From the NCBI GenBank assembly GCA_030018935.1, contig JASEGZ010000013.1, positions 1 to 41,040 on the forward strand: 41,040 nucleotides of DNA, read 5' to 3'. Numbering within the stretch: the stretch's first letter is position 1; each line of letters opens with the position of its first letter. This DNA comes from Syntrophales bacterium (GTDB lineage Bacteria; Desulfobacterota; Syntrophia; Syntrophales; CG2-30-49-12). The notes beneath the pieces were generated by a model. That model was not told the DNA's origin and made no database searches. It worked only from the letters and a program-made list of their open reading frames with translations. Positions 39,514 through 41,040 of the stretch are shown in pieces. Made by a program: the position numbers and the translations under genes.

Positions 39514-39738
39514 ATGCGATTACAATTGACAGCGGTTTTTGAGAAGGTCCCATTGGGCTACATCGCCTATGTTGAAGAACTGCCCGGTGCAAATACGCAG
39601 GGGCGTACCCTGGAAGAAGCCCGATCCAATCTCTTTGAAGCGGTTGAGATGACCATTGAGGCCAACCGGAATCTGTTCGAAGAGGAAATCCGGGATAAGG
39701 TATTGATTAAAGAACCCTTCGCAGTGCTGACTGCATGA
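39514..39738 (+). CDS. hicB: HicB family antitoxin
   Basis: The 74-residue protein has the HicB partial RNase H-like fold: GYIAYVEELPGANTQGRTLE followed by the helix ARSNLFEAVEMTIEANR. It should neutralise HicA. It lacks the C-terminal DNA-binding domain of longer HicB proteins. GGAGGATAT precedes the start. The order is antitoxin first, and the stop overlaps the toxin start in ATGA. Confidence 0.88.
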   Translation: MRLQLTAVFEKVPLGYIAYVEELPGANTQGRTLEEARSNLFEAVEMTIEANRNLFEEEIRDKVLIKEPFAVLTA

Positions 39739-39920
39739 AGCGGGAAAAACTTATCAAACACCTGCGGTTGCATGGATGCGAATTCCTACGGGAAGGTGGC
39801 AACCACACCGTTTTCGTCAATCACCGAGAGAAAAAGGCTTCGACCGTACCCAGGCATCGGGAGATTGATGAAGGTCTCTGCCTCAAAATATGTAGGGATC
39901 TGAATATTCCAAAGCCCTAA
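39735..39920 (+). CDS. hicA: HicA family mRNA interferase toxin
   Basis: HicA is a small double-stranded RNA-binding-fold toxin that cleaves mRNA. The 61-residue protein has the start MKREKLIKHLRLHG, the catalytic histidine H24 in GGNHTVF, and the C-terminal VPRHREIDEGLCLKICRDL block. It is complete. Its stop codon lies within the attC R'' core, which is typical for compact cassettes. Tight coupling to hicB by a 4-bp overlap is as expected. Confidence 0.88.
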   Translation: MKREKLIKHLRLHGCEFLREGGNHTVFVNHREKKASTVPRHREIDEGLCLKICRDLNIPKP

Positions 39921-40001
39921 CCAGTCATTCAAGCCGACCGGGAATTCCTTCTGTGGCTTACAACATCATCTCCGGCCCGGCGGCTTAACTCTACGTTAGC
40001 A
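39915..40001 (+). other. Integron attC recombination site
   Basis: This 87-bp site has R'' CCCTAAC, L'' CATTCAAGCCGACCGG, a central stem region, L' CCCGGCGGCTTAACTC and R' GTTAGCA, with R' fitting GTTRRRY up to the last base. The L arms pair (AAGCCG/CGGCTT). It closely resembles the site at 6401-6487 in reverse orientation. Confidence 0.8.
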
Positions 40002-40435
40002 TCGAATAATTCTGGAGGTAAAATATGCCATCCTTAATCATCCATGCACCCGAATACCAAGTTCGCGAAGGTGCAAAGAGCTTCGAAGACACTTTTAGAA
40101 CAGGCATAGGAGAGGCATATGCTCTCAATAGCTCAATATTGCGACAAGTTTTCCTAGAGGGGATGATACGTCCCGGCTGGCGAGTTGTGTTGTTATGCAA
40201 AGACAGAAGACGTAGGGCTGAGGGCGAACTCGTCAGGCTTGAACCTGCAATAAGAGATGGCAGACCATGGTTTACGAACAACCATATTCGGAGATATGAT
40301 GTCTACGTAGAAAACTTCGAGATGGTCCCATATAGACCTGAAGCACTCAACCGGAATGGGGTAGCGGTTATCTGATTTTGCAGATGCTAACCAGTCACTC
40401 CAGCCGACCGCCTATGGCGGCGGCTGAGCTTGGCG
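39996..40435 (+). mobile_element. Second integron cassette (unknown gene)
   Basis: The cassette starts TTAGCATC, and its terminal R'' region reads GATGCTAAC, again a perfect reverse complement. Without the intron its length is about 440 bp. Its attC is split by the group II intron after GGCGT. Confidence 0.75.
40025..40375 (+). CDS. Cassette-encoded hypothetical protein
   Basis: This 116-residue protein is not recognised. It is soluble and basic, with an N-terminal IIHAPEYQVREGAKSFEDTF, a WRVVLLCKDRRRRAEGELVRL strand segment and a C-terminal RYDVYVENFEMVPY. The charge pattern suggests a small beta-rich domain that may bind a nucleic acid, which is only an impression. TCTGGAGGT before the ATG is a good ribosome binding site. 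It is the sole gene of the second cassette and starts 24 bases after the preceding attC core. Confidence 0.65.
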   Translation: MPSLIIHAPEYQVREGAKSFEDTFRTGIGEAYALNSSILRQVFLEGMIRPGWRVVLLCKDRRRRAEGELVRLEPAIRDGRPWFTNNHIRRYDVYVENFEMVPYRPEALNRNGVAVI

Positions 40436-40436
40436 T
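40385..40436 (+). other. attC site interrupted by a group II intron
   Basis: R'' TGCTAAC, L'' ACTCCAGCCGACC, a tight CGCC/GGCG hairpin and L' GGCGGCTGAGC are present. The R' core should read G|TTRRRY, but after GGCGT the intron begins. The bases at 41039-41040 (TA) rejoin with GGCGT to give GGCGTTA, the expected continuation of R'. Confidence 0.72.
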
Positions 40437-41038
40437 GTGTGCCGGGCATGGCACGGGACTAACGGGGTGCAAGTCCCCGAACCAGGTTATCGCGGAGCCG
40501 AAGGTTAGGAGAAGGGCAAGGGCGTCGTCGTGAGGCGGGGTCTGGAGGAAGCCCAATCCAAAAGTGCGGGGCGACGAACAGGAACCGGATATGAGGTGTG
40601 GTACGTTCGGGGCGAGCGGGCACGTGACTGCGAAGCCCTCCATCCGCAAATGGGGCGTGCTTTATAAATCCGGCGTTTACGCACGGAAAGTTCTGTGTCT
40701 TACCCCGGGAGGTCTCCTGTGTGCCCTGGGAAGTCGCGTGCGACGGAAATTGGCTGAGGGTTGAGCGATCAACCCTGACCGCAGAGGAGAAGTCAGCAGA
40801 AGGCATAGTACTTACTGAGAAGTAGGGAAGGCCCGAACGGTAGTAAAGGCAAGTATCATCTGGCCTGTGGCTCAACATGCCCGTCCGTAGGTGGGGGCTA
40901 TAGAGTTGAGCCGGAGAGCCTTATGAGAAAGTCTTGGCATGTGGTATTATGCTCAAACTACCGAACCGCCCTGTTCGTGATCCGAATGCAGTGGTGGTGT
41001 GGGAGGAGGGGAGTCGTGAGGCTCCCCCCTATCCCGAT
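40437..41038 (+). mobile_element. ORF-less group IIC-attC intron (ribozyme)
   Basis: The sequence begins GTGTGCCGGGC, the group II 5' splice-site pattern GUGYG. It carries domain I-III sequence resembling bacterial class C introns (for example TCTTACCCCGGGAGGTCT and GAAGTCAGCAGAAGGCATAG). A 34-nt domain V hairpin is at 40965-40998 (ACCGCC...GGTGGT), and domain VI is at about 41001-41037 with GGGGAG/CTCCCC and a likely branch adenosine at 41031. The 3' end is ...CCCGAT at 41038. Full introns of this type have a reverse transcriptase/maturase of about 1.3 kb in domain IV; here only about 110-130 bases lie there. Splicing or mobility would need a maturase in trans. It sits just after the attC hairpin, the known target of class C-attC introns. 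Confidence 0.75.
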
Positions 41039-41040
41039 TA

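Follow-up and report, generated by a model that had tools for sequence, protein, structure and literature searches.

An ORF-less group IIC intron in top-strand attC sites of a Syntrophales bacterium, probably multiplied with a maturase supplied in trans

An integron cassette array of a Syntrophales bacterium is interrupted at the end of contig C13 by a complete 602-nt group IIC intron with all six RNA domains and no ORF. At least three insertions in this genome share its ends. We consider it probable that it is a non-autonomous intron that has multiplied in its host and is served by a maturase from a relative, in such a way that its mobilisation would take place in trans. The window refers here to the whole stretch of 41,040 nt that was analysed.

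Results

A predicted group IIC ribozyme of 602 nt

The features of the intron and of the cassettes around it are collected in Table 1. A previous interpretation of the letters alone (the sequence-only reading) had proposed a complete intron running from GTGTG to CCCGAT, and this was borne out by two Rfam models for domains 1 to 4 and by the D5/D6 model, all matching in place. The group-II-D1D4-3 model (RF02001) scored 128.6 bits at 40524-40698 and group-II-D1D4-1 (RF01998) scored 57.8 bits at 40752-40833, both far above their gathering scores. The D5/D6 model (RF00029) put both domains where that reading had them (40964-41038), with 21.3 bits for a gathering score of 40. This threshold is also missed by the intact ORF-bearing relatives of genome G125, P. 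penneri and E. asburiae, supporting that the weak score is a trait of the lineage. The length of exactly 34 nt proposed for D5, which is that of ordinary class C introns, depends on the placement of its ends; taken as AACCGCC...GGTGGTG, D5 measures 36 nt (40964-40999), as it does in G125 and P. penneri, and its 3' strand contains an additional U, at 40992.

Table 1. Positions of the intron, its domains and the flanking cassettes in the window.
Feature	Position	Strand	Basis or remark
HicB-like antitoxin ORF (UPF0150), cassette 1	39514..39738	+	Pfam PF21748, E 8.5e-6, just under curated cut-off
HicA toxin ORF, cassette 1	39735..39920	+	Pfam PF07927, 43.4 bits
attC of cassette 1 (CCCTAAC ... GTTAGCA)	39915..40001	+	sequence; bottom strand folds, R''/R' paired
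116-aa ORF of unknown function, cassette 2	40025..40375	+	no Pfam match
5' half of cassette 2 attC, ending GGCGT	40385..40436	+	5' exon, stem-loop target; hairpin z -3.3
IBS1 GCGT	40433-40436	+	end of 5' exon
ORF-less group IIC intron, complete	40437..41038	+	602 nt, GTGTG (40437) to CCCGAT (41038)
Domain I	40437..40708	+	RF02001 match and helices 1-11 of covarying structure
EBS1 (ACGU) in D1d terminal loop GGCACGUGAC	40622..40625	+	by comparison; position as in E. rectale IIC (PMC10190682)
Domains II and III	40709..40834	+	RF01998 match
Domain IV without ORF	40838..40963	+	basal stem CGGTAGT/ACTACCG, long arm, short 3' hairpin, A-rich link
Promoter-like site in D4, possible outward promoter, weak	40923..40950	+	1 found vs 0.1 expected
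Domain V with CGC triad (40967-40969)	40964..40999	+	RF00029 match, fold, covarying structure
Domain VI, candidate branch-point A41031, 3' end CCCGAT	41000..41038	+	RF00029 match, fold
First two bases of 3' exon (TA)	41039..41040	+	contig end at 55-mer assembly branch

Seven class C introns were aligned after removal of their D4 interiors, and the alignment served to derive a consensus structure. This structure comprises 137 pairs, 75 of them with changes on both sides, and 96.4% of the cells pair. The covariation reaches 0.592, compared with 0.233 in shuffles and 0.09-0.12 when the alignment was slid, a figure somewhat favoured by the use of the same alignment to build and to score the structure. 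The window intron retains 132 of the 137 pairs, as against 130-133 in the ORF-bearing introns, and the fold of the entire intron has a z of -2.8. The D1-D3 fold, the D5 hairpin with its CGC triad and the bulged A of D6 near the 3' end, typical of class C, are all present. These data support that positions 40437-41038 are a complete group IIC ribozyme, which is predicted to splice. A RAGATH-35 match upstream of the intron was below threshold and was set aside.

Domain IV and the missing ORF

The absence of an ORF, also claimed by the sequence-only reading, was confirmed, as the frames within the intron are all short or antisense and have no Pfam matches; an antisense ORF of 139 aa (40459-40878) was accordingly rejected as a gene. 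No significant maturase sequence was found in the 126 nt of D4. A 15-residue match to the G125 maturase, RQVSSGLWLNMPVRR, was equalled by 24 of 500 shuffles, so a maturase remnant is not claimed there. The domain folds with a minimum free energy of -53.1 kcal/mol (z -4.5), its long arm being bent, and its basal stem covaries, with CGGTAGT/ACTACCG in the window, CAAATC/GATTTG in P. penneri, CATTTTC/GAAAATG in E. asburiae and CGGTT/AACCG in G125. This layout is common to the ORF-less introns of locus L046, genome G381 and Neorhodopirellula pilleata described below (z -4.9, -1.7 and -6.2, respectively). No second example of the window's own D4 was seen when 155 genomes from the order and 395 sampled from the phylum were examined. 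In the structure of the E. rectale IIC intron the maturase is held by the D4a arm (PMC10190682), so the kept D4 arm of the window intron would fit service in trans.

The promoter-like site in D4 points at the downstream cassette. Outward promoters have been reported for IIC-attC introns, of which the site is reminiscent; nothing like it was seen in L046 and G381, so it provides no argument for conservation.

Insertion in the top strand of attC

Two cassettes follow guaA, the first with hicBA-like genes and the second with the 116-aa ORF and the attC that the intron interrupts. As the sequence-only reading had anticipated, the flanks GGCGT and TA rejoin to the attC R' core, read as GCGTTA. The insertion point is GCGT|TA, on the top strand of the attC, and the intron reads in the direction of the cassette genes. 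Among the 21 insertion sites of the window intron's family that were examined, IBS1 was NCGT in every case, and the ACGU loop of EBS1 made four pairs out of four at 15 of them. The attC hairpin 5' of the insertion, the ACGU/GCGT EBS1-IBS1 interaction of about four pairs and the lack of an IBS2 are those of class C.

Canonical IIC-attC introns target the TTGT|T of the bottom strand (PMC7923331). Introns of the S.ma.I2 type share with the window intron the class C ribozyme, the attC stem-loop target and the insertion between the two T of GTT, but they occupy R'' of the bottom strand (TTGT|T), run opposite to the genes and carry a maturase in D4, features that all differ in the window intron. The assignment to class C-attC introns therefore stands for the insertion at the attC R' core, but not for the canonical branch, as neither the bottom-strand TTGT|T site nor a maturase ORF in D4 was found. 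By contrast, the introns of class 1 integrons from P. penneri pPp47 and E. asburiae pOXA436 share with the window intron the GTGTG...CCCGAT ends, the ACGU of EBS1 and the placement at NCGT|T within the attC R' core, oriented as the genes are, with a core 76-78% identical, although they are 1.84 kb long and encode in D4 a maturase of 441-444 aa that the window intron does not have. A top-strand attC group IIC intron is also cited from E. cloacae (Rodriguez-Martinez 2012, as cited in PMC7923331). Judged by its insertion point and RNA lineage, the window intron is placed in this top-strand attC branch and not in the canonical bottom-strand one.

Copies of the intron and search for a helper

The window ends two bases past the intron, as had been pointed out, and it is the contig itself that stops at 41040, because the intron is repeated and causes a branch in the assembly graph at that point. 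The final 55 nt of C13 are identical to the first 55 nt of contigs C27 and C15, the two candidate continuations, which then diverge. At the other end, the 55 nt at 40433-40487 and at 40434-40488, around 51 of them intronic, close C55 and C30, with other 5' exons. These exact overlaps and the differing exons (three 5' and two 3' contexts) indicate at least three insertions sharing the 5' end, and two 3' exons sharing the 3' end. All the copies in the genome may well be ORF-less; only that of C13 is readable end to end, and the others, visible at their ends only, could in principle carry an ORF that lies on an unbinned contig. The attC that holds the C55 copy is that of the first cassette, next to an intact integron integrase, and C27 also contains a 5' fragment of the intron. 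Several integron integrase genes or pieces of them are present in this genome (G000, 2.07 Mb), on C1, C9, C40, C55 and C69. No match to the intron was found in a genome of the same genus (G001).

No maturase ORF with another D5/D6 behind it was found beyond the window, and the RVT_1 domain had no match in the genome, a draft of 90 contigs that is 96% complete. The helper search in this draft gave a single GIIM match, on C83, corresponding to a 3' maturase remnant: the C-terminus of the protein followed by a D5/D6 83% identical to that of the window. No intact class C maturase was found in the assembled genome; since 2-kb repeats are easily omitted from such a draft, a repeated helper of this size may be missing from the assembly.

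Relatives with and without the maturase

ORF-bearing relatives were found in genomes G125 (1990 nt, 85% identical over the core), G443, G358 and G051, with intact maturases in the first three, which supports that the window intron is a derivative that arose by ORF loss. In a tree of the cores, the window intron was grouped with those of L046, G381, G176 and G373, and the ORF-bearing intron of G051 appeared beside it (97), so a single origin of all the ORF-less forms is not claimed. The core tree favours repeated loss of the ORF, without telling it apart from a regain in G051.

A pattern scan for a short distance between D3 and D5 was run across 84,980 species. One match (L046), from a Desulfobacteraceae MAG, was an ORF-less intron of 601 nt at an attC-like site; a class C maturase had no match in that genome. 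The scan also found the isolate N. pilleata Pla100 (G155), which has six full ORF-less class C copies of 766 nt, 99-100% identical, plus several partial ones. In N. pilleata (L045, L047, L049, L050, L057 and G155 as a whole) the introns lie apparently between L' and R' of attC, with TGCA as IBS1; the flanks suggest that the insertion sites are attC sites. A maturase-like ORF of N. pilleata (L208, 1592-2281, - strand) is interrupted by a run of N, an assembly gap. Genome G381 begins inside another ORF-less copy, in an attC-type site.

Smaller derivatives were also detected. Two species harbour forms of 448 nt (L164; G176:C258:5021-5468, - strand) and 442 nt (L165; G373:C94:66324-66765, - strand), 87-89% identical and in different attC sites. 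In both, a TCCCGCTATAAGCGGGA hairpin takes the place of D1d with its EBS1, and D4 measures around 26 nt; this form seems to have moved after the loss of the recognition loop. MITE-like remnants of around 185-540 nt occupy attC sites in four genomes (L166, L170, L171, L173 and L174; G246, G211, G275 and G366), with the exact 5' end of the intron and the 3' end of D6, most of the g70 ones having the insert AGCCTGCCCCGGACATGATCCGGG.

Other ORF-less class C introns, from rhizobia, Firmicutes and a Planctomycetota MAG, are apparently not at attC sites. Those on replicons of Sinorhizobium fredii NGR234 (L017:2912-3548) and Rhizobium ruizarguesonis (L018:2900-3534) are around 635 nt long, their 5' ends being approximate, with a D5 above the Rfam threshold. 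Those of Firmicutes and Planctomycetota MAGs (L048, L051, L053 and L054) are 563-640 nt long where measured, some of them directly after terminator-like hairpins. No match to the intron was detected in phages, the pattern search of IMG/VR found none, and in 5426 E. coli genomes there were partial matches in 24 and none reaching 80% coverage.

Discussion

The following scenario would account for these data. A maturase-bearing intron targeting the attC top strand would have lost its ORF and kept all six RNA domains, its D4 closing into a structured arm. The resulting intron would recently have multiplied inside the cassette arrays of its host, the target being the folded attC, recognised by its shape and by EBS1-IBS1 pairing (ACGU/RCGT). 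For splicing and reverse splicing it would rely in trans on the maturase of an ORF-bearing relative, which may since have been lost or degraded (the C83 remnant) or be absent from the assembly. This proposal is weakened because no intact class C maturase was found in the assembled genome, because the activity is predicted for a D5 with an extra U and a low score, and because some of the copies seen at their ends only may carry an ORF.

An improbable alternative is that the intron is a relic, dead or still able to splice but immobile, in which a single internal deletion removed the ORF and which is carried along with cassettes or by recombination. The many degraded pieces of the intron family that occupy the phylum's attC sites (L166, L169-L174, L082, L083) and the extra U in D5 would fit such a relic, but the ribozyme helices are intact and show compensatory changes, D4 is structured instead of decayed, and the near-identical insertions have exact ends in different attC sites.

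It is still less likely that the intron depends on no protein, splicing and perhaps even spreading without any maturase, in line with the proposal made for C.te.I1 of Clostridium tetani, an ORF-less intron for which no helper was found in the genome (PMC3919590). The lack of matches to RVT_1 in the present genome and to a class C maturase in that of L046 agrees with this; however, spread to new DNA sites requires reverse transcription, draft assemblies miss repeats, the C83 remnant reveals that a maturase-bearing relative was once present, and class C introns are strongly maturase-dependent in vivo (PMC10190682). C.te.I1 also differs in that it occupies one locus, within a surface-protein gene, where it splices alternatively, and is not repeatedly inserted in attC (PMC3919590). 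That the assembly joined the two ends of an ORF-bearing intron, as its stop at a branch two bases beyond the intron might suggest, is very unlikely given the covarying stem that closes a D4 without significant maturase sequence and the independent ORF-less introns with a similar D4 in other assemblies, one of them from an isolate.

ORF-less introns are described as rare among bacteria, and almost always occur together with related introns that may provide a maturase in trans; C.te.I1 is the exception (PMC4424553, PMC3919590). In Thermosynechococcus elongatus, 17 ORF-less TeI3 introns are mobilised by TeI4 maturases (PMC2882425). The window intron is thus a variant of a trans-served type already known from Thermosynechococcus: as in TeI3, the ORF was lost from D4 and there are several copies per genome, but TeI3 belongs to another intron class with target sites other than attC, its D4 keeps recognisable ORF remnants and its helpers are present (PMC2882425). 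The literature searched, the coverage of which was incomplete, yielded no description of an ORF-less IIC intron inserted in attC, and priority is not established.

More tentatively, and with some doubt on our part, the cassette arrays of Desulfobacterota and Planctomycetes could harbour long-lived non-autonomous IIC introns, counterparts of SINEs and MITEs, with repeated ORF loss, a two-hairpin D4 that keeps the maturase-binding arm, an attC niche and, in some cases, hosts without a reverse transcriptase.

With an RF00029 score of 21.3, an intron such as this could well have been overlooked. It offers a compact class C ribozyme of 602 nt with a folded DNA target, and natural ORF-bearing relatives as candidate helpers. 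The turn of group II introns to non-autonomy is thought to precede spliceosomal introns; if the multiplication with a borrowed maturase is true, integrons would be a natural setting in which to study how group II introns take that turn.
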